Shown here: positions 9,001 through 36,596 of the stretch, in pieces
How positions within the stretch are numbered: position 1 is the first letter of the stretch
How the letters are laid out: each line of letters opens with the position of its first letter
From: Deltaproteobacteria bacterium
Lineage (GTDB): Bacteria; Myxococcota_A; UBA796; GCA-2862545
Direction: 5' to 3'
DNA length: 45,202 nt
Assembly: GCA_007693595.1 (NCBI GenBank)
Contig: REDI01000006.1
Coordinates: forward strand, 1 to 45,202
Translations under genes and position numbers: made by a program
The notes under the pieces: generated by a model
Seen by the model: the letters and a program-made list of their open reading frames with translations, nothing else
What the model was told of the DNA's origin: nothing
Databases searched by the model: none

Positions 9001-12000
9001 GCAGGTCCAACGGGGGGCTCGACCTCGACCTTGGCGTGCCCCACGGAGCCGCCCCCGAGCGCGATGGCCTCGACCCGCCACGTGGCGCGCGCAGAGGGAG
9101 CGGCCGCCTCGATCGAGAATCGCCCGGCGCGGTCGGTCTGGACGATCTCCCACAGCCCCGAGCGACGCGCACCGGGAGGGTGCTCCGACGGTACGGGCCC
9201 GCTCCCGACCTTCCCTCCGACCGTTCCCCCATGCACGGCTGACCCGGCGCCCCCGGCCCCGCGGCCAACCCCGGAGATGCCGAGCCCACCGAAGCCAGGC
9301 TCCGGCTCGGGAACGAACTCGTCATCCATCATCGCGTCGAGCTCGTTGTCGCGCAGAGACCCTCGCCGCGCCTTGCGCATGCGGGCCTGCTCCTTCACGC
9401 GGGCAGCCTCGGCGAGCAGGCTGGAGGAGACCCCGATGGACTCTGCGGCGCCGGTGAGCGTGCGCGCGGCGGCGGCGTAGGCGCGGCCTCCGCTGGGCTG
9501 GGTGAAGAGGTTCAGGCCTAGTCGCGACGCCTCCCCTTGGTCTTGGATCAAGGCGATGTCGGAGGCGCGGACCAGGACTTGGGCGCGTTGAGGTCGCCCT
9601 GAGGGATCCCGAACGACGCCTGATACGCTCCAGCGGCCCTCGTGGATCTCTGCATCGAGCGCGACTCCGAGGGCGGCGTCGAGCTCCCGGTCGTGGGCGA
9701 CCGATCCCTCGGGGGTGGTGGCGACGATCGAGACGGAGCCGTGCCAGCTCGGATCGGGCTGGGGTCTCCATCGCTGGCCGGCGCGGATCACGGCTGCGTC
9801 GAGGAGGGTGCCCCGCTCCGCCGTCACCAACGCGGCGCCCTCGCTCATTCCTATCGAAGCGGGCTGACCGATCTGCAGCGCTCCGTCGAGGAGCAAGCTG
9901 GCACCTTCGCGCACGTGGAGGGCGTGGTGCGTCGCCGCTGCGGCCGCGTCTTCTCGCACCGCCGTCAAGATGTAGTGGCCCGGTTCTAGGGTGGGAAGGG
10001 TGAAGGAGTGTTCCTCGTCGCTCAGGACCACCTTGCCATCGTGCACGAGTCGGAGGACACCTTGGGGCGGGGTGGGGCGGCCCAGGGGCTCGAAGGCTCG
10101 AAGAGGCTCCGGTCGGAGCTTGGTCTTGAGGACGATCGGCTCCGCTGCGGCGGGCCCGGCATCGCGTCGACGAACCTTGACGCGGACCACCCCTGCATCG
10201 CCGCGGAGCCGCACCTTCCCCCCATGGGCGGAGTGGAGGACCTCGCTGTCGAGGTCCAGCTCGAGCGCGGGCTGCTCGAAGAGCCGCTGACGTCGCGTTG
10301 TCACCGAGGACAGGGGGAGGGCAGCGTGGAGCTGCCAGGACAGGCCCTCGGCGGGGGCTAGCAGCGAGACGAGGCCTCGCGCATCGGTGCGCGCGACGCG
10401 GTCTTGACCGAGGTTGTCGGACAACTGGACAGGGTGGTTGGACAGGGGGAGTCCATCCGCATCCCGGACCTTGGCGTAGCGGGCTTCGGGGTCCCCTTCG
10501 AGGGTGAGGGTGTGGGGGAGCGGGCTCTCTGGGAGGGTCTTGAGGGTCGCGAGGCGGCGGGGGGAGTCCTCGCCAGGGGGCAGCGCCCACAGCTCGTAGG
10601 TGCTGGGCCCGTTCTGGCGCTGGGACCGAGGGAGGGTGAGGCTGCCCTGGATCGTGCCGTAGTCATCGCTGGACAGGCGGAGGGTCTGGTGTACGAGTGG
10701 ATCGCGACGCCCCGCGGTACGCAGCTCGACCGTCCAGCTACCCGAGATCGGATCGCCGTCACGGATCCCGGCGATGCGAAACCGTGCCTGATCTCCGGGG
10801 AGGTAGATCGGTCGGTCGAGATCCAGTCCGACCCGAAGCCCTGCGCTCGGTCGGTTCCTCTCGGAGCGGATCTCGAGCATGGCTGGCCCGCCGCTGGTCT
10901 CGGCCAGCACGACCAGACGCTGCCCCGGCGCCTCGAGCCGCGCCAGACCCGAGCCGTCGGCCCGGCCCTCGATAGCTCGCTCCCCGACCGCCAGGATGCG
11001 CGCGCGGGGTACGGGCACGCCGTCGCGTAGCGCGGTCGCCACCAGCTCCCCGCCCACGGTTCGCGCCACCAGCTCGATGTCCGACACCAAGACGAAGGTC
11101 CTGGCCTCTCGGTCAGGCAGGGCGGCCGTGACCGCGTACAGGCCGGGCCGGCGGAGGGGCAGCGGGACCTCGACCTCTCGCTCACGGCCCAGTTCGGCCT
11201 CTCCGAGATCTACGGTGAAGCTTCGATCGGGCGCGATGATGCCCACATCGAGGGCCTCGAGATCCGTCGGAGACCGGCCCGCCCGAACGTAGCCCTCGAG
11301 ATCGATGGCGTGCAGCCGGATCTCGACCTCGGAGACGTTGCGTACCGTGAGGGTCACCTTGGGGTCTCTCGGCTGACGACCGGGGCTTCGGATGACCAAG
11401 GCGGGCTCCGAGAGGGTCTTCTTGACCCTGTGTGCGTCGGAGCGGCCGGCGAGGATCTGAGCTTCGAGCCAGGCGAGTCCGCCAGCCTCGTCGAGCTCGA
11501 CGCGGGCCTGGATCGCCTGTAGGGCGATGGCTTGGCCGGCGAAGCGCGCCGCGAGCTCGGTGAGGGCCTCGAGACGCTCCTGCCCCTCGAGCGCGAGAAC
11601 AGCCTCGAAGGCGCGCTCTGGACTGTCGGGCCGGGCGTCGGCGAGCGCGCGCAGCCCCGCGGCGTCTCGGGCCTCGCGGGCCCGGTGGAAGCGCACCTGC
11701 TCCAGGCGGGCCTCGGCAGATCGCCGAAAGGTCGCCGAGGGGAAGCGCTGGAGCAGGTCGACGAGGCGACGCTCCGCTTCGGCCTGGTCGGGCCCCCGAG
11801 TCAGGAGCTGCGCCAGGATCCAGGCGGCTCGCTCCGCGTGGTCGTCGTCCTTGGCAGCCAGCGGCTCCAGGAGCTCCGAGGCTTCGGCGATCCACCCGGC
11901 ATCTGCCAGCTTCGCCCCGAGCTCGAGCCGAGCCTCCCGCGCCTGCTCGCTCTGAGGGTGGCGCTCGATCAAGGACCGGGCGACGATCAGCCCTTGGTCC

Positions 12001-12680
12001 AGCGAGAGCGCGCTCGACAGGAGCACCCGCGCCGCGAGGACCTCGGCGCTGTCCGGGAGGGGCGAGAGCATCGCCATGCCCTGAGCTGGGGGGAGCAGCG
12101 GCGCGAGGAGCAGCCGGTCCGCAGGAGCGCTCTGGCCGCCCTCCGCGATCGCTTCCTGCAGGGTCTTGATGCTGGCCGCGCTGCCCAGGGGCGCGAGCTT
12201 GCGGGCGATCGCGCGTCGACGTTCCAGGGGGAGCTCCAGCCGCAGCGCGGCTGTGAGCAAGGAAGCAGCTTGGTCGGTCCGATCCTGAGAGAGCTTCTCG
12301 GCCCAGGTCTCGAGCTGGTTCGCGGTGGCCTGGTGGCGAGAGGGTCCGAGGGAACTCACCCCCAGCGCCTCGTAGGCGGCGGCGGACTCTGGAGCTCGCC
12401 CTTGAGCCCAGAGGGCCTCCGCGCGCAGCGATCGGGCCGCCCGAGCGCAGGCCGCCTCGTCGGGCACCCGCTCGAGCACCTGATCGGCCTCGGCGGCTCG
12501 ACCTGCCCGGAGCGCCGCCCGACCGAGCATGCAGTGCAGCTCGTGGTCTGGATCGTCGCTCAAGGCTCTCCGCAGGATCGTGAGGGCGGCCTCGGTGCGC
12601 CCCTCGGCCAGGGCGCGGGTCGCGTCCTCGCTGGGGGAGCTCGCGAGAGAGAAGCCAAGCAGCCAGAGCCAGACGAACAT
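6003..12680 (-). CDS. Giant exported alpha-2-macroglobulin-like protein with TPR regions, no thioester
   Basis: 2225 residues. The ATG at 12680 is chosen because GGAGG lies four bases upstream and a signal-peptide-like hydrophobic start follows; the frame is open further upstream but without a better start. Order: signal peptide; TPR-like helical repeats (about 18-400); macroglobulin-type beta domains, including the family motif DRPIYLPGDQARF near 620-635; a Gly-rich linker (about 1120-1170); an A2M-like segment starting near 1173; a helical region where the thioester domain would lie (about 1310-1520); a second TPR region (about 1760-1990); and a final beta domain with an Arg/Gln-rich tail. 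No CxEQ thioester motif is visible anywhere, so covalent trapping of proteases as in classic alpha-2-macroglobulins is unlikely. A protein-interaction or envelope-defence role is inference. The K+ channel gene follows after 21 bases. Confidence 0.8.
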   Translation of the reverse strand: MFVWLWLLGFSLASSPSEDATRALAEGRTEAALTILRRALSDDPDHELHCMLGRAALRAGRAAEADQVLERVPDEAACARAARSLRAEALWAQGRAPESAAAYEALGVSSLGPSRHQATANQLETWAEKLSQDRTDQAASLLTAALRLELPLERRRAIARKLAPLGSAASIKTLQEAIAEGGQSAPADRLLLAPLLPPAQGMAMLSPLPDSAEVLAARVLLSSALSLDQGLIVARSLIERHPQSEQAREARLELGAKLADAGWIAEASELLEPLAAKDDDHAERAAWILAQLLTRGPDQAEAERRLVDLLQRFPSATFRRSAEARLEQVRFHRAREARDAAGLRALADARPDSPERAFEAVLALEGQERLEALTELAARFAGQAIALQAIQARVELDEAGGLAWLEAQILAGRSDAHRVKKTLSEPALVIRSPGRQPRDPKVTLTVRNVSEVEIRLHAIDLEGYVRAGRSPTDLEALDVGIIAPDRSFTVDLGEAELGREREVEVPLPLRRPGLYAVTAALPDREARTFVLVSDIELVARTVGGELVATALRDGVPVPRARILAVGERAIEGRADGSGLARLEAPGQRLVVLAETSGGPAMLEIRSERNRPSAGLRVGLDLDRPIYLPGDQARFRIAGIRDGDPISGSWTVELRTAGRRDPLVHQTLRLSSDDYGTIQGSLTLPRSQRQNGPSTYELWALPPGEDSPRRLATLKTLPESPLPHTLTLEGDPEARYAKVRDADGLPLSNHPVQLSDNLGQDRVARTDARGLVSLLAPAEGLSWQLHAALPLSSVTTRRQRLFEQPALELDLDSEVLHSAHGGKVRLRGDAGVVRVKVRRRDAGPAAAEPIVLKTKLRPEPLRAFEPLGRPTPPQGVLRLVHDGKVVLSDEEHSFTLPTLEPGHYILTAVREDAAAAATHHALHVREGASLLLDGALQIGQPASIGMSEGAALVTAERGTLLDAAVIRAGQRWRPQPDPSWHGSVSIVATTPEGSVAHDRELDAALGVALDAEIHEGRWSVSGVVRDPSGRPQRAQVLVRASDIALIQDQGEASRLGLNLFTQPSGGRAYAAAARTLTGAAESIGVSSSLLAEAARVKEQARMRKARRGSLRDNELDAMMDDEFVPEPEPGFGGLGISGVGRGAGGAGSAVHGGTVGGKVGSGPVPSEHPPGARRSGLWEIVQTDRAGRFSIEAAAPSARATWRVEAIALGGGSVGHAKVEVEPPVGPALVVDPLAPGWPGDEARPRARVLVPEGGAEVRVIDGDTAHRCAEGPGEVCEYELRAMSPGDRRLVSVEVDGVVSARKELSFEVAAGTRDEEGPIYAALVGRPGGTLLGAIALEADPFLSDPRRAAIAGLCALEALPALSGDERDQALVLLRALVGDLRESPGRLDPSTAAAAIELMARSASVLGLPQRDVATFTGPLASIEPADARTRLALTWARAHIDGKAPEATLGRLVREADQLLEEDRALLARLLIKVGEPPTEQPFASDGPHAFLAARAVRGWRGPTIDDLLAAGPPALGDRDRPAWIRAVARELAKPAMPSQAAAGGVARSLQPLDGAITWREREPDTYTPTLSSSESLPARIPQRTDGLPHPDQRVGTSCGTAESPCQIQIGEGVSVPPGVLHPQGGLALVPRAGQVQAVAPGRYTVIGFHRDGRGSRLHVEVGANADTPLGSRPSVFLAQQAEATRDDPLVPLGDAPLQNWPKDLRATVARLRFTHTPTTDATALVAAFENLRDEAPNTPIPLERIAETAKAYQTIGRPDRARSLWQRVLGQDLLAEIGVSRQLERASGRLATIRALRETLRRAPAVREAEQATFALPDRLLALAENLPPQAIEAGVTATDVRLQAAAWDQEYLAFHLDSKEAPEAGLRLATTLYELGARERAVGWTERLQRRFPEHELLDDWLLLEGLARTELQDGRRARPLFTRIAEDDLPLGGGRSGPSPLRDDARYGLGRLAEAQDDLKAALDWYGKVSSAVPEASAARQALQAVSLDTEPVVRLSARGPTRLDLKVANVDQVHVSAFAVDLRTLFLRESGIPRPENLRVEGLSPTWTGTRRLRAGAFPERQELAVPLSGPGAWLVRIDGDGASASVLVVRSDLEVHPVDGTQRRLAVRERNTPVVEAGVRALGGSGIVAAQTDARGVALVPSGSPSLAWRGDHVAFTPDAIALTGPVRRGRASTAPAPDVLQMRQQQRERSRRSSNIQTYDYIGEEVEQSIRASDL

Positions 12681-12856
12681 CGATCCTCCGATCTCTACGA
12701 GAGAACAGTACACCCCACGGGGCGGTGGTTCATCGCATCCCCTCGCTAACGCTGCCATTGACCGCACCTTTACACCCTGCGAGACGTTCCGTGACGCGGC
12801 TAGCCGAAGCGCTCGGACGTTTTGGGCGTCTGAGTACCTACTCACAAGGAGGCCTC

Positions 12857-16608: not shown

Positions 16609-17526
16609 ATGAAGAAGCTCATCCCATCGTTGCTGGCTTGGTTGCTGTTCTTAGCTCCCGTGAGTGCCTCGGCGGGACTGGGGCCTCAGGTCGCGCAGGT
16701 CGCGGAGCACTACCTCGACACCCGCCCTGCGCTGTCGATGGAGACCTGCAACGGCCTCATCGAAGACGTGCTGCGCGACACCGGCGTCGAGATCCGAGGA
16801 AGTGTGCGCATGCTCTACGCGGACATGCAGCAGCGAGGCTGGGTCCACACCCGCACCGTGCCGCGGCCAGGCGATCTGGTCTTCTTCGACAACACCTACG
16901 ACGCCAACCGCAATGGTCGTCAGGATGACCCGCTCTCTCACATCGCGATCGTGATCTCGGTCGACCCCGACCACACGGTCCACATGGTGCATCACGGGAG
17001 CCGCGGGATTACGCCCTTGACCATGAACCTTCGGTTCCCGAGCGACCACCGTGATCGAAACGGCAAGGTCGTCAACTCCTTCCTCGCCGCCAACGGCTAC
17101 GGCCGAGAGGGGCAACGGCTTTCGGGTGAGCTCTGGCGCGCCTTCGCGACCCCGGAGCGCGAGGGGCGTAACGCCTCGGTCGCCGCCATCGACAGGGAGC
17201 GCCTCAGCGCGCCGATCGAGCCCGTGACCTTGCCGGTGAGCCTCAGAGACCCTGCGCTCCGCCGGGCGTGGGAGGGGCGACGGGTCGCGCCGCGCCATCT
17301 GCGGGACCGGACCTGCTACGAGCTCTGGTTCCTTCGGAACGCGGTCTATGCCAGCCATGGCTTTGCCTTCAACACCTTCGAGGCGCAACGGGCCTTCAGC
17401 GCCATCTCGACCTATCGCCGCGATACCTCGATGACCGCCGAGAGGGTCAGGGATCGCCTCACGAGGGTGGACCACGCGAATGTGGAGCGGATCCTCAAAG
17501 CCGAGAGGGCGGCTCAGTGCCGATGA
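16609..17526 (+). CDS. Exported CHAP/NlpC-like amidase with C-terminal YARHG domain
   Basis: 305 residues, ATG at 16609 with AGGGA upstream. Signal peptide (1-22) is followed by a papain-like cell-wall hydrolase domain: C47 in METCNGL at the start of a helix, then PRPGDLVFF (about 85-93) and H111 in LSHIAIVI, the layout of NlpC/P60 or CHAP enzymes that cut peptidoglycan peptides. Between them lies an Asp-rich loop (DNTYDANRNG) that may bind Ca2+. The last 70 residues (about 235-300) match the YARHG type, with CYELWFLRNAVYASHGF; this extracellular domain often accompanies peptidoglycan enzymes. Active-site Cys and His are present. Periplasmic or surface peptidoglycan hydrolysis is the likely role; which bond is cut is not visible. 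Confidence 0.85.
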   Translation: MKKLIPSLLAWLLFLAPVSASAGLGPQVAQVAEHYLDTRPALSMETCNGLIEDVLRDTGVEIRGSVRMLYADMQQRGWVHTRTVPRPGDLVFFDNTYDANRNGRQDDPLSHIAIVISVDPDHTVHMVHHGSRGITPLTMNLRFPSDHRDRNGKVVNSFLAANGYGREGQRLSGELWRAFATPEREGRNASVAAIDRERLSAPIEPVTLPVSLRDPALRRAWEGRRVAPRHLRDRTCYELWFLRNAVYASHGFAFNTFEAQRAFSAISTYRRDTSMTAERVRDRLTRVDHANVERILKAERAAQCR

Positions 17527-26655: not shown

Positions 26656-28950
26656 GTGCGCTTCCTCGCCCCGTTTCTTCTGCTGGCCGCTTGTTCACCG
26701 ACCGAGCTCGACCTCGTGGTGCGCGCCGACTTCACCGTGCGTCCGGGGGTCGAGACCGCGACCGTGCTCGATGGCCGGCCCTTCACCCCCTACACCCTGC
26801 TCTCCGAAGATGGGGAGCGCCTCATCACCGTCACCTCCGACGATCTGGGTCAGGCTCACTTCGCCTACGTCCCTTCGAGCCTCGTGACGGTGCAGAGCGG
26901 CGAAGGCACCGAGTTCCCCTTCGCCGACGGCGAGGTCCTCGCCGGTGGGCGGTACTACGAGGTCGTCGACGAGGAGCGCGGTGAGACCTCGGCGCCCTTC
27001 CGAGTGCTCGCGCTGCGCGACGTACCCAGACCCGAGTTCTACCGCGCGCAGAGGGTCGAGGGCATGGAGTGGTCTCCTATCGAGGGACCGAAGGGGGAGC
27101 CCCAGGAGTACCTGACCTACCTGGTCATGCGCGATGGGGTGACCCTCTCCGCCATGGTGCGCTACCCGGATCACCGGCTCTATGGTGAGGGGCCGTGGCC
27201 TACGGTCGTCGAGTACTCGGGCTACTCCCCCTCCAGGCCTGACCGGGCCGACACGGGCACGATGATCGCCAACGCATTGGGCTACGCCACGGTGAGCGTC
27301 AACATGCGGGGCACGGGCTGCTCGGGCGGGGTCTTCGACGTGTTCAACCGCGCTCAGCACGCCGATGGCTACGACATCGTCGAGACCATCGCGCGTCAGC
27401 CCTGGGTGCTCGGGGGGCGCGTGGGCATGGTGGGCTTGTCCTACCCTGGGATCTCGCAGCTCTATGTGGCCTCGACCAACCCGTCCTCCCTCGCGGCCAT
27501 CGTGCCCAAGTCTGTCATCGCCGACGCCTGGGAGATGCAATGGCCCGGCGGCATCTACAACGTCGGATTCACCGAGCAGTGGGTCGACGAGCGGGAGCGA
27601 CAGACGGGGACGGGGCAGGGCTGGGTCCGTCGTCGCATCGAGGCGGGCGATGAGGAGTGCGAGCACAACGTGAGGCTCTCCCGCCAGAACTTCAACTTCG
27701 AAAGCTTCTTTCGTCAGCTCGAGTTTCGACCTCCGAACTCGGATGATCGCGATCTGCGTCAGCTCTCGGAGCCGATCGAAGCGGCGGTTTACCTGAGCGG
27801 CCAGTGGCAGGATGAGCAGACCGGAGCCCAGTTCGCCGAGCTCGTCCATCGCTTCCACTCCGCCCGCTACGTTCGGGCCTTCCTCGCGAATGGACGCCAC
27901 CCCGACGGCTATGCCCCCGACGTGGTCTTCGGCTGGTTCGAGTTTCTGGAGCTCTACCTGGCTGAGCGGATACCGCGCCTGAACGGAGCGATCCGGGTGG
28001 CAGCGGCGGGGCAGTTCGCGTCGAGCTTCGGCATCGAGAGCTATCGCTTCCCGGCGGATCGCTTCGACGACGCGGACGACTACGCACAGGCCCTCGCGCG
28101 CTACGAGTCGGAGCCCCCGATCACGGTCCTGTTCGAGAACGGGGCGGGCTCCCAGGTCGATGGGGCGCCGGTGGCGCGCTCCGAGATCCAGACGACAAGC
28201 TGGCCTCCCCCTGGATCCATGACCCGGACCTTTCACGCCACGCGTGACGGCCAGCTTGCAGACGACCCTCCATCCCAAGGCGGGGTCCATCGCTGGAGCC
28301 ACGATCCTCACGCCGGCTCTATCGACTTTTTCGGCCCGCGGGGCTATGAGCTCCTCCCGACGCTGTGGGACGAGGACTGGACGCGATTCGCTCCGGGCGA
28401 CGCGGTCTCTTACCTCACCGCGCCCATGTCGGACGACGTCGTGCTCGCAGGCCCCGGAGTCGTCGAGCTCTATGTCCGAAGCCCCGAGGTGGATGACGTG
28501 CACGTTCAGGTCACCCTCACCGAGGTCCGCGCCGATGGTCACGAGGTATACGTCCAGTCCGGCTGGCTCAGGCTGGGTCATCGGGCCGCGAGCCGCGATG
28601 GGCTCCGCGTCGAACGCTGGTTCGACGAGCGGGACTTCGCCCCGGTAGAGCTGGGGGCATGGACCCGGGCCGATGTCGAGATCCCAGCCTTTGCGCATCC
28701 CTTCCGGCAAGGTTCTCGCTTGCGCATGGTGGTGAGCAGCCCCGGCCGGGACCACGGAACCTGGCTCTTCGAGCCGCCCCCTTACGATGGTATCCCTCGT
28801 TTCGATCTCGGAGTCGGGGGGGGGCATCCCACACAGCTCGGCTTGGTCCAGATCCCCGGCGTGCCGATCGCCGAAGGGCTGCCTCCCTGCCCCTCGCTCC
28901 GCGGACAGCCTTGCCGCGTCTACGAACCCATCGACAACGTGTCGGACTGA
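26656..28950 (+). CDS. CocE/NonD-family hydrolase lipoprotein
   Basis: 764 residues from GTG 26656, supported by GGAGG four bases upstream. The signal peptide ends with the lipobox LLLAAC. An N-terminal beta domain (about 20-140) precedes the X-Pro dipeptidyl peptidase S15/CocE alpha-beta hydrolase. The nucleophile motif GLSYPG contains S262, with D386 (GQWQDEQ) and H415 (NGRHPDGY) completing a catalytic triad at a CocE-like spacing (D to H 29 residues). A C-terminal jelly-roll (about 545-745), the XPP_C domain, follows. The family hydrolyses esters or N-terminal X-Pro dipeptides; the substrate is not readable. The gene faces a likely terminator at 28954 and stands 174 bases before the caspase cassette. 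Confidence 0.9.
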   Translation: MRFLAPFLLLAACSPTELDLVVRADFTVRPGVETATVLDGRPFTPYTLLSEDGERLITVTSDDLGQAHFAYVPSSLVTVQSGEGTEFPFADGEVLAGGRYYEVVDEERGETSAPFRVLALRDVPRPEFYRAQRVEGMEWSPIEGPKGEPQEYLTYLVMRDGVTLSAMVRYPDHRLYGEGPWPTVVEYSGYSPSRPDRADTGTMIANALGYATVSVNMRGTGCSGGVFDVFNRAQHADGYDIVETIARQPWVLGGRVGMVGLSYPGISQLYVASTNPSSLAAIVPKSVIADAWEMQWPGGIYNVGFTEQWVDERERQTGTGQGWVRRRIEAGDEECEHNVRLSRQNFNFESFFRQLEFRPPNSDDRDLRQLSEPIEAAVYLSGQWQDEQTGAQFAELVHRFHSARYVRAFLANGRHPDGYAPDVVFGWFEFLELYLAERIPRLNGAIRVAAAGQFASSFGIESYRFPADRFDDADDYAQALARYESEPPITVLFENGAGSQVDGAPVARSEIQTTSWPPPGSMTRTFHATRDGQLADDPPSQGGVHRWSHDPHAGSIDFFGPRGYELLPTLWDEDWTRFAPGDAVSYLTAPMSDDVVLAGPGVVELYVRSPEVDDVHVQVTLTEVRADGHEVYVQSGWLRLGHRAASRDGLRVERWFDERDFAPVELGAWTRADVEIPAFAHPFRQGSRLRMVVSSPGRDHGTWLFEPPPYDGIPRFDLGVGGGHPTQLGLVQIPGVPIAEGLPPCPSLRGQPCRVYEPIDNVSD

Positions 28951-28953
28951 GAG

Positions 28954-29008
28954 CCCCCGTCTTTGGGCGTCTTCTCGATCCCGTCGCACGGAAGAGGGGG
29001 ACTTTTTT
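28954..29008 (+). terminator. Possible Rho-independent terminator after CocE-type gene
   Basis: CCCCCGTCTT (28954-28963) can pair with AAGAGGGGG (28992-29000) in nine base pairs with one bulged G, a 28-base loop, followed at 29003-29008 by six T. The arrangement begins four bases after the stop codon of the hydrolase gene. The loop is longer than usual, so the strength is uncertain. Confidence 0.45.
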
Positions 29009-29023
29009 GGTGAGCCCGGTCTA

Positions 29024-29069
29024 GGACCGAGCTATCCACGAGGCGGAAGTCGGTCCCGGATTTTTTTTT
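29024..29069 (+). terminator. Second hairpin with T9 run before caspase cassette
   Basis: GGACCGA (29024-29030) and TCGGTCC (29050-29056) form a perfect 7-base stem with a 19-base loop, followed four bases later by nine consecutive T (29061-29069). It may be a terminator that insulates the caspase cassette from the upstream gene. A T9 run is very rare in this GC-rich DNA and could slip, although it lies upstream of the preferred start codon. Confidence 0.4.
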
Positions 29070-29124
29070 GAATAGGTGGACGGGACGGGTCGTCTTTGCC
29101 ACCTTCGCACTTCTTGGAGCCCTT

Positions 29125-30426
29125 GTGTTGATTCTCTTTCTCGGCTGGATCCTGGCGGGCGTGGCGAGCGCCACAGAGCTGCCGGACCTCATGAAGCCCC
29201 TTCGGAGCGGGGAGCGCGCCGCAGGCGACGTGGCGGTAGTCATCGGCATCGAGTCCTACCCCTTCGCCTCCGACGTCCCCTACGCCGCCCGCGATGCCCA
29301 GGCGATGTATACTTGGCTGCTCCATACTCGCGGCATCTCCCAAGACCGCATCCGCTTGCTCGATGGGGGGGCCAGCCGAGAAGACATGATCGAGGCGTCT
29401 ACGTGGGCGGGTGAGCTGGCTGGGCCTGACGCCACGGTCTGGTTCACCTTTGCGGGCCACGGAGCGGCGGACCCCTCGACGGGGGAGCGGGTGTTGCTCG
29501 GCGATGACGTGCGGCGACAGGCGTCCTCGATCACCCACCGCGGGGTGGCGGTCTCGGAGCTGCGTCGAGCGGCCGGAGCGGGCGGCGCCGAGGTCTTCAT
29601 GCTCGTCGACGCGTGCTATGCCGGGGTGGGGCGTGACGGTGAAGAGCTGCTGGCGGGTACGCGCTTCTTGGTGCCCGTCGCTGAGGTCAACCCCGAGATG
29701 CGTGGTATCGAGTGGAGCGCGGCGGGGCCCAACCAACTCACGGGGCCTCTAGAGCCCGCGGAACACGGGGCCTTCACCTACTTCGCCATCGGGGCGATGC
29801 GCGGCTGGGCCGATGGTTTCCTCGACGGATCGCCCGACGGGCAGGTCACCGCCGACGAGGCCCGCGCGTACGTCAACCACGCCTTGCGGGTCGCGGGGGT
29901 CGACGATCAGCACTCTCAGATCGTCGCCCCCGATCCCTCTCGGGTCGTGCTCGCGAAGTCTTCGCGCTTCGAAGAAGCGCCCGACCTCGAGGTCTTGCAA
30001 CGAGCGAACACACCGCGCCGTATCGGGCCCCAGCGTCCCTCCGTCGCCGGAGAAGGCCTCGACCCCACGGATCGGCGCGCGTTGGTCGAGTGGGCCTCCG
30101 AGCTCGTCGACACGTGCTACGCTCGCCACGCCGAAGGAACCTTCGGTATTCGTCAGTGGCGAGTCGCCTTTCGGATCCATCCCGAGCGGGGTCTACGCAT
30201 GGTGCGCGTCAGAACCCAGATCAATCTGATCACGAACTTCTACCGCGCCCGCCGCAGAGCCACACGCCTCTGCATCCGCGACGAGATCCGTGACGCGGAG
30301 TTCGCGGTCCCCGCGTCGGTCGTCAAGTTCTCGACGAACCTCAGAGCGAACGTCAGCAGTGAGTCGGGCGCCGAGCGCATGGTGCCAGACTCCATCCCGC
30401 TCCCCTTGCTGGGAGGGTTCCTGTGA
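29125..30426 (+). CDS. Exported caspase-like (C14) peptidase, paralogue 1
   Basis: 433 residues from GTG 29125 with GGAG six bases upstream and a signal peptide (about 1-16). The frame is open up to TTG 29068, which lies in the T9 run without a good ribosome site. The caspase p20 region follows: a GIESYP strand (41-46), H112 in TFAGHG and C164 in VDACYAG, the catalytic dyad. Downstream an EF-hand-like loop, DGSPDGQVTADE, precedes the helix near 258-270. The C-terminal part (about 340-425) has two Cys about 55 residues apart (DTCYARH and LCIRDE) in a strand-rich domain resembling the AgmX/PglI C-terminal domain of myxobacterial motility proteins. Export is unusual for caspases, which are normally cytoplasmic. 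The next gene begins 101 bases after the stop, although its open frame reaches back to it (TGATG). Confidence 0.82.
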   Translation: MLILFLGWILAGVASATELPDLMKPLRSGERAAGDVAVVIGIESYPFASDVPYAARDAQAMYTWLLHTRGISQDRIRLLDGGASREDMIEASTWAGELAGPDATVWFTFAGHGAADPSTGERVLLGDDVRRQASSITHRGVAVSELRRAAGAGGAEVFMLVDACYAGVGRDGEELLAGTRFLVPVAEVNPEMRGIEWSAAGPNQLTGPLEPAEHGAFTYFAIGAMRGWADGFLDGSPDGQVTADEARAYVNHALRVAGVDDQHSQIVAPDPSRVVLAKSSRFEEAPDLEVLQRANTPRRIGPQRPSVAGEGLDPTDRRALVEWASELVDTCYARHAEGTFGIRQWRVAFRIHPERGLRMVRVRTQINLITNFYRARRRATRLCIRDEIRDAEFAVPASVVKFSTNLRANVSSESGAERMVPDSIPLPLLGGFL

Positions 30427-30527
30427 TGAGCTTGACCGCAACAGACCTTTATCCAGAGGGAAGTCATGCGAGGTCGGTGGGGTTACGAAGCTCCACCCTC
30501 CGACCCCTCTCCTCCCTTGGAGTGCTC

Positions 30528-32249
30528 ATGATCGCCTCGACCCTCCTTTCGGTCGTCCTCTCGTTGGCCCCGGCTCACGCGAACGACGCGCCCGACATCC
30601 TCGAGCCCCTTCGCACCGGCGAGCGGACTCCAGCCGACGCCGCCGTGGTGATCGGCATCGAGAACTACCCCTTCGTGTCCGACGTCCCTCACGCCCAGCG
30701 CGACGCCCAGGCCATGTACAACCTGCTCGTCTTCACCCGCGGGGTGCCGGCCGACCGGGTCACGCTCCTCGATCGCGGCGCGAGCCGAGAGCAGATCCTC
30801 TCGGCGGTCGAGCGCGCCGGGGGGCAGGTAGGCCGAGATGGCACCGTCTGGGTCTACTTCGCGGGTCATGGCGCGGCCGACACGGCGACCGGCGACCGTC
30901 TCCTCCTCGGCGATGATGTTCGTCAAGACTCTTCGGCCTTCAGCGCCCGCGGGGTCTCGGTCAAGGAGCTCAAGGAGCTCGCCGGCAAGGGGGGCGGCTC
31001 GGTCTACATGATGGTCGATGCCTGCTACGCGGGAGTGGGGCGTGACGGCGAGGAGCTTCTGGCGGGCAAGCGCTTCTTGGTCCCGGCGTACACGAACCAG
31101 GCCAACGCGCGCTTGCTCGAGTGGAACGCCGCAGGCGCCAACCAGCTCTCGGGTCCCATCGACGCGGTGAGGCACGGCGCCTTCACCTACTTCGCGGTGG
31201 GCGCGCTGCGCGGTTGGGCCGACGGCCACCTCGACGGTAAGCCCGACGGCAAGGTCACGGCCGAAGAAGCCAAGGTCTACGTCAACAGCGCGCTGCGTAC
31301 CCTTCAGAACCACGACCAGCAGTCTGTGCTCACCGCGACCGATCCGAGCCGGGTGGTCTTGTCGAGCTCCGATCGGCTCGAGTCGGGCCCCGATGTCCGG
31401 CTCATCTCTTCGCTCCGCGAGGCCCCGCCGGCCTCTGAGCCGTCGACGTCGCAGCCCTCGGCGCCCGCGGCGAGCGGTCCTCAGCCCCCGGCCGACTCGT
31501 CCAACCGCAACGCGGTCCAGGCTTGGGTCAACCATGTGGTGAACGAGTGCTATCACCAGCACGGTCAAGAAGACGCCTCGTTGCGCCAGTGGTACGTTCG
31601 CTTCCGTGTCCATCCCCGTCGTGGGCTCGGCGGCATGATCATCAGCGCCCCCGAGGCCTCGATGAGCCACAGCATGTCGGCGGTCCATACCTGCATCCGC
31701 GGCGAGATCCGAGGTCATTCCTTCGACCTGCCCCGATCGGCGGTGACGTACCAGAACTACCACACGGCCGAGGCGGCTCCGTCGCCGCCGCCTCCGCCGG
31801 TCGCTCAGCGAACCGAGCGCGAGCGCACGCCGCGGCAAGATCGCCCCCGAGGCGGCCCCGGCATCGAGATCGATACCCCAGACGGCCGGTTCTCGATGAC
31901 TATCCCTGGCGCGACCACCGGCCCCGAGCGGGACACGAGGCGCCGCTCCAGCCCGGCTCCCGCGGAGCCTCAGCTCCCCAACGAGGTCGAGATCGTGCTG
32001 CGTAACCCCGACAACGACTGGACCGATGTTCGGATCAACGGCGAGGTGGTCGCGGAGTTCCGCAACCAGCGCGAGATGACGGTCACCGTTCGCCCCGGCA
32101 CGCACTTCATCGAGTTTGTCCCCTTCATGAAAGACACCCCCTTCGCCTCTGGCCGTCTCGAAACGGGCACGGCCGACAACATCATCTTCGGGTTGAGCCA
32201 CAGTAATGGCGTGACCTGTTTCAACCACGATGGCTGGCAACCACGCTAG
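30528..32249 (+). CDS. Exported caspase-like (C14) peptidase, paralogue 2 with extra C-terminal domain
   Basis: 573 residues from ATG 30528 with GGAG five bases upstream and a clear signal peptide (MIASTLLSVVLSLAPAHA). H114 in YFAGHG and C166 in VDACYAG form the catalytic dyad. An EF-hand-like loop, DGKPDGKVTAEE, follows the p20 region. A Pro/Ala/Ser-rich linker (about 310-350) leads to the same two-Cys domain as in paralogue 1 (NECYHQH and TCIRGE), then a Pro/Arg-rich disordered stretch and a final beta domain (about 495-570). Residues 25-170 and the two-Cys domain are clearly homologous to the preceding gene, so tandem duplication followed by C-terminal extension is likely. Substrate and activator are unknown. 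Confidence 0.85.
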   Translation: MIASTLLSVVLSLAPAHANDAPDILEPLRTGERTPADAAVVIGIENYPFVSDVPHAQRDAQAMYNLLVFTRGVPADRVTLLDRGASREQILSAVERAGGQVGRDGTVWVYFAGHGAADTATGDRLLLGDDVRQDSSAFSARGVSVKELKELAGKGGGSVYMMVDACYAGVGRDGEELLAGKRFLVPAYTNQANARLLEWNAAGANQLSGPIDAVRHGAFTYFAVGALRGWADGHLDGKPDGKVTAEEAKVYVNSALRTLQNHDQQSVLTATDPSRVVLSSSDRLESGPDVRLISSLREAPPASEPSTSQPSAPAASGPQPPADSSNRNAVQAWVNHVVNECYHQHGQEDASLRQWYVRFRVHPRRGLGGMIISAPEASMSHSMSAVHTCIRGEIRGHSFDLPRSAVTYQNYHTAEAAPSPPPPPVAQRTERERTPRQDRPRGGPGIEIDTPDGRFSMTIPGATTGPERDTRRRSSPAPAEPQLPNEVEIVLRNPDNDWTDVRINGEVVAEFRNQREMTVTVRPGTHFIEFVPFMKDTPFASGRLETGTADNIIFGLSHSNGVTCFNHDGWQPR

Positions 32250-32313
32250 TCTTGCTCGGCGCACCGCGCCCAACCCTCCAACGGGCTACGGCCCACCGTA
32301 TCGGAGCTACATC

Positions 32314-33540
32314 ATGCGCACTGCGATGCTATTGACCCTTCCGCTCGTGCTGGCTGCGTCCTGCACTCCCAAGACCCAGGCGCCCGAGGGCGTAGGACCC
32401 ACGGTGGTGGCGCCGCAGAACCTGTTCCTGCGCAACGCCTTCGATGCGGATCCCACCATGTACCTCGGCCGGTTCGTGCCCGATAGCGACGAGCCCATCG
32501 ATGAGTCTTCGGCCATGCAGCTCCCCTGCTCGCAACACATCTCCTACCGCAAGATCGACGGCGGCGGGGTTGTCTACGACGAGATGTTCAACGCCTCCAC
32601 CGAGGCGGCCGCCCGCGTCGGCGTCCCGCTCATAGCCAACGCCTCGATCGGCGCTAGCGCCTCCCAGGTCGTGCGGGTCCGCTACGAGCTCACCGACAAG
32701 CTCGTCGCCGACATCCAAGACCCGGCTGCCTTCGAGGCCTGCTGCAGCCGGGCGCCCGACCAGTGCACCGAGCGCTTTATCGGCGAGTTCATCGGGGGTA
32801 CGGGCTCGGTCTTCTACTCCTCGGGTCAGAGCGCGGGGGCGAAGGGCTCCGGCGTGAGCCCCTCGGGAGGCTCGGGCGACCTCGAGTTCCGTCACGGCAT
32901 GGCCTGGCAGCGCTCGATCGAGTTCCCCCGCCCGATCTACTTCGCCTTCAAGACCTCGCGCAACCAGTTCACCGGCCAGCAGGTCGAGGGCGGCTGTGGT
33001 CCCTGGACCAACGCCCCGCCGCGTAGCAGCCAAGGTCGATACTTCGTCGGCATCTCCATGCCGATGCCTACTCAGATGGAGGCGCGCGACACGGCGCTTC
33101 GCAACGGGCGTGAGCAGGTAATCCGCTACATCGCCGAAGGGATCGACTCGGGCTCGCTCTCGGTGCGGGTCACTCAAGGCCTGTCCAATGCCTTGCAGAC
33201 CCAGGTCGAAGACGCGCGCGTCGTCGAGACGGCGGCCAGCGGGGTCGCTCGGCTTGTGGGCGATGAGGCGTGGTGTGTGGAGCCCACCGCGACCCCAGGC
33301 GGCAACGTCTACGTCGCCAAGGTCCTCATGTTCTTCCCCCGCGCCCAAGAAGAGGCGGCGATCCGCGCCTTCGCGGATGCGGCGGGCATCGAGGCCCCCG
33401 AGAACGAGATCGAGCGCGGCCCTCGGAACGAGGCCCCGCCCGATCCGACCCCCGGCCGTGATCGCACGCCGAGCGAGACCTCGCCGCAGCCCTCTGGGGA
33501 TCGCGGGGGCCGCACCACCACCCGTGGTGGAGGCCGCTGA
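32314..33540 (+). CDS. LPP20-like lipoprotein of caspase cassette
   Basis: 408 residues from ATG 32314, with GGAG eight bases upstream; the open frame extends back to 32230, overlapping the caspase gene, but the signal peptide with lipobox LAASC begins here. An N-terminal domain of about 200 residues with several Cys pairs (CC at about 155-165) is followed by an LPP20-type helix-strand segment (about 250-340: MEARDTALRNGREQVIRYI). The tail from about 350 is Pro/Arg-rich and probably disordered. Function unknown. Position directly between the caspases and the DUF4384 lipoprotein, on the same strand, suggests a periplasmic or outer membrane partner. Confidence 0.72.
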   Translation: MRTAMLLTLPLVLAASCTPKTQAPEGVGPTVVAPQNLFLRNAFDADPTMYLGRFVPDSDEPIDESSAMQLPCSQHISYRKIDGGGVVYDEMFNASTEAAARVGVPLIANASIGASASQVVRVRYELTDKLVADIQDPAAFEACCSRAPDQCTERFIGEFIGGTGSVFYSSGQSAGAKGSGVSPSGGSGDLEFRHGMAWQRSIEFPRPIYFAFKTSRNQFTGQQVEGGCGPWTNAPPRSSQGRYFVGISMPMPTQMEARDTALRNGREQVIRYIAEGIDSGSLSVRVTQGLSNALQTQVEDARVVETAASGVARLVGDEAWCVEPTATPGGNVYVAKVLMFFPRAQEEAAIRAFADAAGIEAPENEIERGPRNEAPPDPTPGRDRTPSETSPQPSGDRGGRTTTRGGGR

Positions 33541-33542
33541 TC

Positions 33543-34820
33543 ATGAAGGCGCAAGGTCTCCTCTCTGTGATGCTTCTGGGGCTGATCGGCTGTCCCTCCA
33601 AGAAGCCGCCTGAGGCTTCGGGGTCTCCTTCAGAGAATCCGGGGGTGACGGAGAAGCTCACAGTGGACCTGGAGGCCCTGTGCCCTACCGCCGACGTGGC
33701 AGGTTACCAGGTTCGCCGAGGCGAAGCCAGCGGTGTCAACGCCGGCGAGGCCATCGCGGCGGCCCGCGAGCAGGCGCTTCAGTCCTTGGGGCGTCATGTC
33801 TGCACCGGGGTCAGCGAGCTGCGCTGCGCGGCGATATTGCGCCACGTCAAGCCGTGGCGCGAAGGCTGGTTCGATCCCGCTGGGGGCTGGGCATGTGCGT
33901 CGGTCTCGATCGATCGGCGCGAGCTCGACAGCCTCGAGCAGGACGCGGCAGTCTTCGAGTCCAACCTTCGCAACCTCGCGGCGGCGGTCGCGGAGCGCAC
34001 CGGGCGGACGCCGGTCCAGGTCAAGGCGCCCACGTGGGCGAGCGGCTGCTCCTCGGGTGGGGTGGGGCAGGCGATCTCTGCCGGTTTGTTCAATCAGCTC
34101 GCCTCATTCCCCGATGTTCGGCTGATGCCGTCCGAAGATCGTGCTGATCGAGCGATGCGCGTCAGCATGGAGCTGGCTCCCGGTCGCGGTGGCGTCGCCC
34201 TGACGGCCGCCATCGCCCGACCCACCGAGTCTACCGTCGCGCCGTTGCCCGGCTTTAACTTCCCGCTCGACCTCTTCGAGATCGACGCCGATGAGCGCGG
34301 CCAGTGCCGGGGAGACCGCGAGCTCGGCCTGTCCAACGGGGAGCGCCTGGGCGAAGGTGGACTCCGGGTCATGGTCGAGGTCCCGGGCGTCGATGGCGAG
34401 GCCTGCGAAGGCCAAGATGTGGAGCCTGTCGTCCGGGTCAACCGTCCCGCGGATCTCCAGGTCTACTCGGTCGCGAAGGATGGTCGTAGCTTGCTCGTCT
34501 GGCCGCCCCCCGGCTTCGACTCCAGGGTCGAGGGAACCCTCTCGCTCGGCACGATGACCGCCATCGCCCAGCCCCAGACCGGCGATGAGCGCTTGGTCGT
34601 GGTGGCCTTGCCCTCGGGCGGCCGCTGGGAGAAGACCGATGGCTGGCACGGCTTCTGCGAAGTGGCGGGCGGCCTGCAGCCCGAGTACTACCCCAAGTCC
34701 GCAGCGGTGGGGACGGCGACGTTCACCGTGAACCGTTCAGGCACGGGGGACTGTCCAGCGGTACCCAACATCGAGGCGCTGCGCGATAAGGTGGTCCTGC
34801 CTCCGGCGTGTCCGCTCTAG
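33543..34820 (+). CDS. Lipoprotein with LPP20-like and DUF4384-like domains
   Basis: 425 residues, ATG at 33543, two bases after the preceding stop, with GGAGG nine bases upstream. Signal peptide with lipobox LIGC (Cys17). An LPP20-like part (about 45-150) contains AREQALQSLGRHVC. The C-terminal part includes VRVNRPADLQVYSVAKDG (about 295-312), the usual opening of a DUF4384 domain, followed by strand-rich sequence to the end. In many bacteria DUF4384 is fused to the C terminus of caspase-like proteins; here it is on a separate lipoprotein in the same cassette, which supports a functional link. The gene converges on the 5'-nucleotidase gene, 84 bases away. Confidence 0.78.
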   Translation: MKAQGLLSVMLLGLIGCPSKKPPEASGSPSENPGVTEKLTVDLEALCPTADVAGYQVRRGEASGVNAGEAIAAAREQALQSLGRHVCTGVSELRCAAILRHVKPWREGWFDPAGGWACASVSIDRRELDSLEQDAAVFESNLRNLAAAVAERTGRTPVQVKAPTWASGCSSGGVGQAISAGLFNQLASFPDVRLMPSEDRADRAMRVSMELAPGRGGVALTAAIARPTESTVAPLPGFNFPLDLFEIDADERGQCRGDRELGLSNGERLGEGGLRVMVEVPGVDGEACEGQDVEPVVRVNRPADLQVYSVAKDGRSLLVWPPPGFDSRVEGTLSLGTMTAIAQPQTGDERLVVVALPSGGRWEKTDGWHGFCEVAGGLQPEYYPKSAAVGTATFTVNRSGTGDCPAVPNIEALRDKVVLPPACPL

Positions 34821-34904
34821 CAGGCGGGAGGCTCGGCGAGCCCACAGGCGGGGTCGCGAGGCGCGCCGGGTGAGCGGGGGGCCTCTGACGAGGTCGCTGG
34901 CGCG

Positions 34905-36596
34905 TTACGGTGTGGCGCCGTCGAGCACGCACGCCTGCCCAGAGGGGTGCTTGGCGTTGCAGACGCGACCGGGTTGGGACGGGGCGAAACCCTGGCCCTC
35001 GGGGAGCGCCTTCCAGGCCTCTCCGACCAGGGGCTTGAGATCGGTCCCGTTGATGGGGTTGTCGACGACGGCATCGAAGGAGAGCATGGTGTAGCCGTCT
35101 TGGTCGCCCATGTTTGGATCGAGCAGGTAGTCGACGGTGACGACCCGGTAGGTGGCCTGGGGATCGATGGGCCTCCAGGAGTCGTTCTCAAGGACGCTCC
35201 CTTGAAGGGCGGCTCCGGCCTTGGTGTCGTGGCGGAAGGCGACGCCGCTGACCTGCAGCCAGTGGCCCTGGGCGGTCCAATCCTCGACGCTCCGATCGAG
35301 CACGGCTTGAAGGGTCTCTCCCGAGATCTCGATCAGGCTCATCTTGGTGGGGTAGGCGAAGATCTCTTCGAGGATCTGCCGCGTGATCGGCGTACCCGCC
35401 GAGATGTCTTGGTTCAGGCGAAGCGCGCCGCTGTTGATGACCGCGGCCTGCGCGCCGTGCTCCGCGAAGGTCTCGACCATGCGGTCGGCGATCCAGCCGC
35501 CGAGGTTGGTCTCGAAGCGTCGGATCGTCGTCTCTTCGGCGTGGAGGTCGACCCCAGCGGTGGTGTAGACCTGGTCGAGGCAGCCCGGTCCATCGTCGGC
35601 ACAGAACGTCTCTTCGAAGCGCTCGAGCCAGGTCTCGATTCGGGTCTGCACCAGGGGGTCTTCGGCGGGGGCCTCGGGGCCGAGGGCGATGTCTCCGTCG
35701 TCGTAGCGGAGGTCGAGCTGACCGTCGGGACCGATGCGGGCCTCGATGACGCGCACCCGCACCGCGTCCGCATCCCCCTTGAGGACCGGCCTGGTGCCCA
35801 CCACGCTGGTCTGGAGGCTGTGGTCGTGTCCACCGAGGATCATGTCGGGCCCGTCGGCCCCCAGTCGCTCGATGATCTGGCGGTCGTCGCTCGCGTCGAG
35901 GTGAGTGAGGCCGATCACGATCTCGGCGCCGTCGTCGCGAAGGCTGGCGACCTGGGTTCGGGCCACGCTCTCGTAGTCGGTGTCGATCATCGAGGCGTAG
36001 GCCGGCACTTTGGCGTCGATGGTGAGCCCGAAGAGCCCGACCTTGACGCCCCCGATCTCGACCACGGCGTTGGAAGCCAGGCGATCCCCTCCGATCAACG
36101 GGCCCTCGTCGCCATCGGCCCATGCGATGTTGGTGTCGAGCCACAAGAACTGGCTCTCGTCGATGCGCGCCTGGAGCATCGGAGAATCTTTAAGTTTTGC
36201 CTTGTCGAACTCGTGATTTCCCGGCGTGAAGAACATCAGGGTGTCGAAGGCGTCGGGGTTGCCGTCGAGGCTGTTGAGCACGTCGATCATCTGCTCGCCT
36301 TGAAAGACCCGAGAGAGCAACGATGGGAAGAGGGCGTCGCCAGCGTGCGTGATCATGACGCCGCCGGGACAGTCTCGCTCGAGCTCGGTACGAAGGGTGC
36401 GGACGCGCGCCAGGCCCCCCCGCCCATCCGCGAGCCCTTCGATCCGGTAGATGTCGTTGAGGTGCAGGATCTTGAAGGCTCGGCTGCCATCTTCGAGGAG
36501 CCCGCAGGCGGGAGGCGGCGGAGCGGGTGCGGCGGGCGGAGGGGTTTTGGTGCAGGACAGGGAGCTGAGGAGCAGCAGGGAGAGCGTGAGGCGCAT
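34905..36596 (-). CDS. 5'-nucleotidase/UshA-family metallophosphatase lipoprotein
   Basis: 563 residues, ATG at 36596 with GGAG five bases upstream. Signal peptide with lipobox LSC near residue 15, then a Pro-rich linker. The metallophosphoesterase motifs are present in order: LHLNDIY (44-50), AGDALF near 85, GNHEFD near 126, GLTHLD and GGHDHS. A 5'-nucleotidase C-terminal domain (about 330-530) carries the substrate-binding sequence NSGALR. The family hydrolyses nucleoside monophosphates and related phosphomonoesters in the periplasm. The gene follows the nucleotide pyrophosphatase gene by 12 bases, so stepwise breakdown of nucleotides outside the cytoplasm is likely. Confidence 0.92.
   Translation of the reverse strand: MRLTLSLLLLSSLSCTKTPPPAAPAPPPPACGLLEDGSRAFKILHLNDIYRIEGLADGRGGLARVRTLRTELERDCPGGVMITHAGDALFPSLLSRVFQGEQMIDVLNSLDGNPDAFDTLMFFTPGNHEFDKAKLKDSPMLQARIDESQFLWLDTNIAWADGDEGPLIGGDRLASNAVVEIGGVKVGLFGLTIDAKVPAYASMIDTDYESVARTQVASLRDDGAEIVIGLTHLDASDDRQIIERLGADGPDMILGGHDHSLQTSVVGTRPVLKGDADAVRVRVIEARIGPDGQLDLRYDDGDIALGPEAPAEDPLVQTRIETWLERFEETFCADDGPGCLDQVYTTAGVDLHAEETTIRRFETNLGGWIADRMVETFAEHGAQAAVINSGALRLNQDISAGTPITRQILEEIFAYPTKMSLIEISGETLQAVLDRSVEDWTAQGHWLQVSGVAFRHDTKAGAALQGSVLENDSWRPIDPQATYRVVTVDYLLDPNMGDQDGYTMLSFDAVVDNPINGTDLKPLVGEAWKALPEGQGFAPSQPGRVCNAKHPSGQACVLDGATP

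Follow-up and report, generated by a model that had tools for sequence, protein, structure and literature searches.

Activation of bacterial gasdermins (bGSDMs) is by caspase-like proteases encoded beside them (PMC9612521). For the two-component CDC-like toxins (CDCLs), it is by surface C11 proteases that cut after Arg, and the CDCL operon also encodes a protective surface lipoprotein (PMC11169675). We analyzed a 45,202-nucleotide (nt) stretch of contig REDI01000006.1 from a deltaproteobacterium (Myxococcota_A; assembly GCA_007693595.1), hereafter the window, in which four consecutive open reading frames on the forward strand, all four confirmed, encode two C14 peptidases (caspases 1 and 2) and two further proteins, A and B. 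The genes are linked across genomes, and their products carry export signals and, in the caspases, intact catalytic residues. As a first-pass annotation of this DNA had held, they thus form a real, exported and conserved multi-gene system, unlike the cytoplasmic caspases of defence systems. We propose, with a probability of about 0.5, that the three families constitute an extracytoplasmic module in which the exported caspase would process A, a protein of predicted pore-forming fold, with the assistance of B.

Linkage, catalytic residues and export of the three families

Three of the cluster's proteins were searched in 58 relatives, and genes were called in the window and 64 further loci; counts at genome level refer to 284 genomes of the phylum and counts at locus level to 40 usable A loci. 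A was present in 45 of the 284 genomes, and 29 of the 36 genomes carrying B also held A, against 5.7 expected (p about 1e-21). An exported caspase lay within 3 kb of A in 23 of the 40 loci, in variable gene order, and the chance of such linkage was about 3e-30 when the background was set generously, at 7 caspases per 3.5 Mb, and relatedness was ignored. The genes are therefore not scattered in all relatives; such scattering is what the first-pass annotation had named as counting against it. A, B and a caspase stood together in most loci inside and outside the taxonomic order, A and B usually side by side and a caspase adjoining in many genomes; among 20 loci outside the order retrieved by A alone, 13 held A, B and a caspase. 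The named relatives were uncultured Myxococcota or deltaproteobacterial metagenome-assembled genomes, one of them assigned to Nannocystaceae.

The arrangements included A-B-caspase (genomes G011, G020, G031, G013 and G048), A-caspase-B (G094 and G130), a caspase divergent from A-B (G007), a divergent A/B pair flanked by caspases (G027 and G046), and caspase-A with B divergent (G071 and relatives). Although the locus had been described as having four components, these belong to three families, and the caspase pair is a local duplication: the two proteins share 52% identity over 397 amino acids (aa; E 1.5e-127), are sisters in the caspase tree with support of 100/98, and correspond to a single caspase in G011, G020 and G031. 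The A-linked caspases were polyphyletic, with 11 label changes in the tree, at least 8 of them forced by supported branches, indicating that the association recurred independently and that different caspase lineages were paired with A. Clusters of several exported caspases round one A/B pair were also observed (loci L105/L106 in G046:C354 and L182 in G280:C574), some L105 caspases having FGE-sulfatase-like C-terminal domains. In addition, G020 contained, besides its standard A-B-caspase set, a second, diverged A-B pair (L132, G020:C50:7000-23734) of a subfamily without the FDTDPS motif.

Both window caspases have hydrophobic signal-like N-termini and intact His/Cys dyads (Table 1), in agreement with their first description as paralogous exported C14 peptidases. 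The start of caspase 1 had been placed at 29125; because that start lacks a charged n-region, we prefer the TTG codon at 29068 (MNRWTGRVVFATFALLGALVLILFLGWILAGVASA), with an in-frame stop upstream at about 29011. Caspase 1 alone had no Pfam match. Caspase 2 has a weak AgmX/PglI-like tail (12.5 bits, below the NF033768 threshold of 40) followed by a further C-terminal domain. The catalytic His and Cys, together with Asp two residues before the Cys, were kept in all 27 A-linked caspases, and this Asp was found in 51 of 51 caspase homologues, consistent with a predicted basic P1 specificity. In metacaspases, Asp at this position shapes the Arg/Lys pocket. Each window caspase also contains a loop of the pattern DGxPDGxVTAxE, in which D1, D5, G6, V8 and E12 are present and position 3 is not acidic; a strict EF-hand loop (DxDxDGxVxxxE type) occurred in 24 of the 51 homologues, which suggests possible Ca2+ control. 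The source genome encodes seven caspases of the window type in total. The five outside the window (contigs C82, C11, C40 and C5; L089-L093) do not adjoin A or B, and one of them, L091, starts like a lipoprotein and is extended by about 120 aa at its N-terminus.

Export was scored by one permissive signal rule, with other genes scored in the same way as background. Signal-like N-termini were found in 90% of both the A and the B proteins and in 94% of the caspases, versus 47% of the background, and a lipobox in 55% of the A proteins, 40% of the B proteins and 18% of the caspases, versus 19%. Several A and B homologues had an ordinary Sec signal peptide without the lipobox Cys. Judged by these signals, export is conserved in all three families, whereas lipid anchoring is not. 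The earlier description of A and B as two lipoproteins thus fits the window copies, both of which have a lipobox (A, starting MRTAMLLTLPLVLAASC, Cys17; B, starting MKAQGLLSVMLLGLIGC, LIGC), and only part of each family.

Predicted folds of proteins A and B

The first-pass annotation overlooked a separate domain in A, made up by its N-terminal half and having a predicted pore-former-like fold. The structure of A was modelled from a 21-row alignment (mean predicted local distance difference test score, pLDDT, 79; predicted template-modelling score, pTM, 0.52), with the N-domain core mostly above 90; the domain has two very long hairpins, and the model is not reliable at their tips. In the search of solved structures, 35 of the 50 matches listed fell in the N-domain, and all 35 belonged to the MACPF/CDC/CDCL/gasdermin/SNTX superfamily. 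The highest Z among these N-domain matches was 6.2, for the Vitiosangium bacterial gasdermin pore (9a84), followed by the gasdermin-like RCD-1 (8jyy, 5.7), a CDC-like protein (6xd4, 5.4), MACPF proteins (5.3) and another bacterial gasdermin (7n50, 5.0). The gasdermin matches spanned aa 28-226. Foldseek ranks 1, 2, 3, 5 and 6 were MACPF proteins, and viral MAC/perforin proteins were among the matches in a second library, BFVD. The Z values lie under the level of a clear match, and a single value of such size is no proof; we assign the fold because the matches fall uniformly in one superfamily. On this structural ground, the N-domain of A very probably has a MACPF/CDC/gasdermin-type fold.

Sequence support for this fold is slight. 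The MACPF signature is (Y/W)-x6-(F/Y)GTH(F/Y)-x6-GG (PMC6089593); no A-family member had it in full, and the part in common was His, a hydrophobic residue, x6 and GG (10 of 40 members). A related motif, C-[ST]-x-H-hydrophobic-x6-GG, preceded hairpin 1 in 9 of the 40 members and occurred in none of 819 other proteins, and in the window copy it reads C72-S-Q-H-I-x6-GG, directly before the hairpin. Hairpin 1 was amphipathic (mean z 1.8), with regions outside the hairpins at about 0. No family in Pfam, NCBIfam or PADLOC covered the window copy of A. One homologue, L111 (G037:C86:7000-26000), has a long C-terminal extension with no B or caspase nearby, and an A member that is probably L111 matched DUF4476 (PF14771, 6.7e-23).

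The LPP20-like folds announced for both proteins were recovered in the predicted structures, by comparison with 5ok8 (Table 1). The C-domain of A resembled Lpp20, Tip-alpha and FlgT, and the linker GCGPWTNAPPR237SSQGR sits at its start. B, modelled with AlphaFold2 from an 18-row alignment (pLDDT 87), would consist of an LPP20-like domain, a domain like the C-terminal domain of LpoB and an Ig-like sandwich. The DUF4384-like domain that had been noticed in B is borne out at family level, since PF14326 matched 5 of 18 members (best 1.6e-6), with the window copy below the reporting level. Elsewhere in the source genome, the N-terminal part of B has a further relative of LPP20 type (G000:C61:9012-9332, E 4e-8).

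The gaps along the four genes are about 100, 64 and 2 nt, and a promoter and terminator scan of positions 28900-35000 gave no signal above chance. An X-Pro dipeptidyl-peptidase (S15) gene lies upstream and a convergent 5'-nucleotidase gene downstream, both unrelated to the cluster. Elsewhere, the window encodes a YARHG-domain protein of CHAP amidase type, a possible cell-wall enzyme (16609-17526, forward strand), and a protein that is about 2240-2280 aa long and combines TPR with carboxypeptidase-regulatory-like domains (6003-12845, reverse strand).

Table 1. Genes, domains and motifs of the caspase-A-B locus (window coordinates)
Feature	Position	Strand	Description
Caspase 1 (C14)	29068..30426	+	Signal peptide; H131 (29458-29460) and C183 (29614-29616); Ca-loop-like motif; C-terminal tail like that of caspase 2
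Caspase 1 Ca-loop-like motif DGSPDGQVTADE	29824-29859	+	EF-hand-like loop inside caspase domain
Caspase 2 (C14)	~30528..32249	+	PF00656 at 37.9 bits (cut-off 21.4); signal peptide; H114 (30867-30869), D164 and C166 (31023-31025); alternative start GTG 30477
Caspase 2 Ca-loop-like motif	31233-31268	+	EF-hand-like loop inside caspase domain
Protein A, 408 aa	32314..33540	+	Lipoprotein signal; predicted MACPF/CDC/gasdermin-like N-domain and LPP20-like C-domain
A N-domain, aa ~30-226	32401..32991	+	Predicted pore-former-like fold; hairpins 87-134 and 154-216
A C-domain, aa 228-351	32995..33366	+	Predicted LPP20-like; 5ok8, Z 8.1 (aa 227-351)
Protein B, 425 aa	33543..34820	+	Lipoprotein signal (LIGC)
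B LPP20-like domain, aa 41-137	33663..33953	+	Predicted; 5ok8, Z 9.6, 94 residues, 3.0 A
B LpoB C-terminal-domain-like, aa 136-242	33948..34268	+	Predicted; 4q6z, Z 9.1, 103 residues, 3.1 A
B Ig-like beta sandwich, aa 272-401	34356..34745	+	Predicted; DUF4384 by family

Proposed mechanism and alternative readings

In the mechanism we propose, A and B would assemble through their LPP20-type domains in the periplasm or at the cell surface, A being a secreted protein or an outer-membrane lipoprotein whose LPP20-like C-domain may serve as an inhibitory or assembly domain. The exported caspase, whose catalytic Cys has an S1-type Asp at -2, would cut after Arg or Lys, R237 in the linker being a candidate site, and the cut would remove or rearrange A's C-terminal part. 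The domain thus released might then oligomerise and insert its hairpins into a membrane, either that of a competitor or prey or the producer's own outer membrane. Carried to its full extent, this would be a pyroptosis-like or complement-like machine outside the cytoplasm, in which caspases activate A, B helps, and prey, rivals or the producer's own outer membrane are perforated; in that form the proposal is tentative and rather unlikely to hold in every part.

Several results weigh against caspase-controlled pore formation by A. The fold of A is a predicted model of the confidence given above, with Z values below 8, and its second hairpin is not clearly amphipathic. Comparison of the N-domain with ten MACPF proteins of the phylum by HHalign gave a probability of 0.25%, equal to that of controls, and Pfam MACPF (PF01823) had no match at E<=1 among 21 A members. 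A-B pairs in some genomes, and A alone in others, have no adjacent caspase. The linker Arg/Lys also tracked caspase linkage weakly. As a conserved cleavage site it was considered and set aside: Arg/Lys occupied position 237 in 14 of 23 linked A proteins versus 3 of 17 others (p 0.01), but this association ranked only third of 62 columns and is thus indistinguishable from shared ancestry.

The LPP20-like domains common to A and B allow a different reading, in which the two proteins build rings or a periplasmic assembly of the LPP20/FlgT/FlgP type, the MACPF-like domain is a non-lytic scaffold and the caspase matures the assembly. LPP20/SHS2 relatives form rings in flagellar outer-membrane rings (PMC12222027), and the LpoB-like domain of B and the second hairpin of A, which is not clearly amphipathic, agree with such an envelope scaffold. 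Yet no further gene family recurred beside A and B across families, past local synteny, and the patchy distribution of A would be unusual for a structural envelope machine, so that we consider this explanation possible but doubtful. A surface proteolytic system, in which the caspase is the effector and A and B anchor or regulate it, was the role originally assigned to the lipoproteins. It draws on the lipoboxes of both window copies, on the exported caspases with their intact catalytic residues, and on the presence of a C-terminal DUF4384 domain in some bacterial proteins homologous to caspases (PMC6426788). The lipobox is not conserved in either family, which weakens an anchoring role, and A devotes an entire domain to a predicted pore-former-like fold, so that A is more likely to be a substrate or effector than to be an anchor. 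Given also the many A-B pairs without an adjoining caspase, which mark A-B as the constant core with the caspase as a variable partner, we regard this role as improbable.

By analogy with bacterial gasdermin defence, the locus could instead be an antiphage or abortive-infection module: a caspase beside a gasdermin-like fold follows the bGSDM principle, 21 of 21 caspases matched the caspase model of PADLOC, and a patchy distribution would be in keeping with it. PADLOC had no match for A, however, the neighbours in the window are not defence genes, and the export signals of the components speak against phage sensing in the cytoplasm; a defence role is accordingly very improbable.

Caspase-controlled pores occur in animals and, through the bGSDMs, inside the bacterial cytoplasm, and Myxococcota include predatory bacteria. 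If true, the proposed module would unite such pores, outside the cytoplasm, with exported pore formers of the kind found in Bacteroidota, whose activators are clan CD proteases, to which both C11 and C14 peptidases belong, and would be the first bacterial caspase-gasdermin-type pair working outside the cytoplasm, as far as the literature searched shows. In the open-access literature, we found no paper joining caspase, MACPF and myxobacteria, and none joining bacterial gasdermin, caspase-like protease and MACPF. The module would also suggest a function for a group of exported bacterial caspases still lacking one, and it would make the long-standing guess of a cell-surface site of action for bacterial caspases (PMC3501461) concretely testable, with A as the named candidate substrate.

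Comparison with known systems

As far as the profile and structure libraries used show, the A and B families are undescribed. The caspases belong with the C14 peptidases and orthocaspases by their p20 domain with a His/Cys dyad, and they share with orthocaspases and prokaryotic metacaspases (PMC3501461, PMC6426788) occasional FGE-sulfatase, EF-hand and DUF4384 associations and a location already suspected to be extracellular. Unlike the present locus, those proteins have no conserved exported operon with A and B families in the literature searched. The predicted C-domain of A and first two domains of B share their folds with LPP20, FlgT and LpoB lipoproteins; sequence-level membership is absent, and in A and B these domains are fused to MACPF-like and DUF4384 domains.

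Like the bGSDM operons (PMC9612521, PMC10989679), the locus places a gene of predicted pore-forming fold beside a caspase-like protease, a proximity seen at the 23 linked A loci, and 9a84 and 7n50 were among the best matches of A. In contrast, bGSDMs are cytoplasmic whereas the A family is export-signalled, and they have a short inhibitory C-terminal peptide, cut about 20 aa from the end, where A ends in about 120 aa of predicted LPP20-like domain and a tail. A also has conserved cysteines and a second partner, B. With the Bacteroidota CDCLs (PMC11169675), A would share export and a pore-forming fold that a clan CD cysteine protease activates extracytoplasmically with a cut after Arg, and the CDCL operon likewise includes a surface lipoprotein. 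CDCL pairs, on the other hand, are two CDC-fold subunits, whereas B combines predicted LPP20, LpoB-like and Ig domains, and their protease is a C11 enzyme, perhaps from the target cell, in place of a linked C14 caspase. CDCLs have no Pfam relationship to A or B, and PF01289 matched neither protein. A therefore falls outside the bGSDMs (exported, with a long C-domain), the MACPF family (no profile match) and the CDCLs (partner not of CDC fold). Taken together, the module resembles both the caspase-activated bacterial gasdermins and the protease-activated CDCLs, and is a member of neither family.
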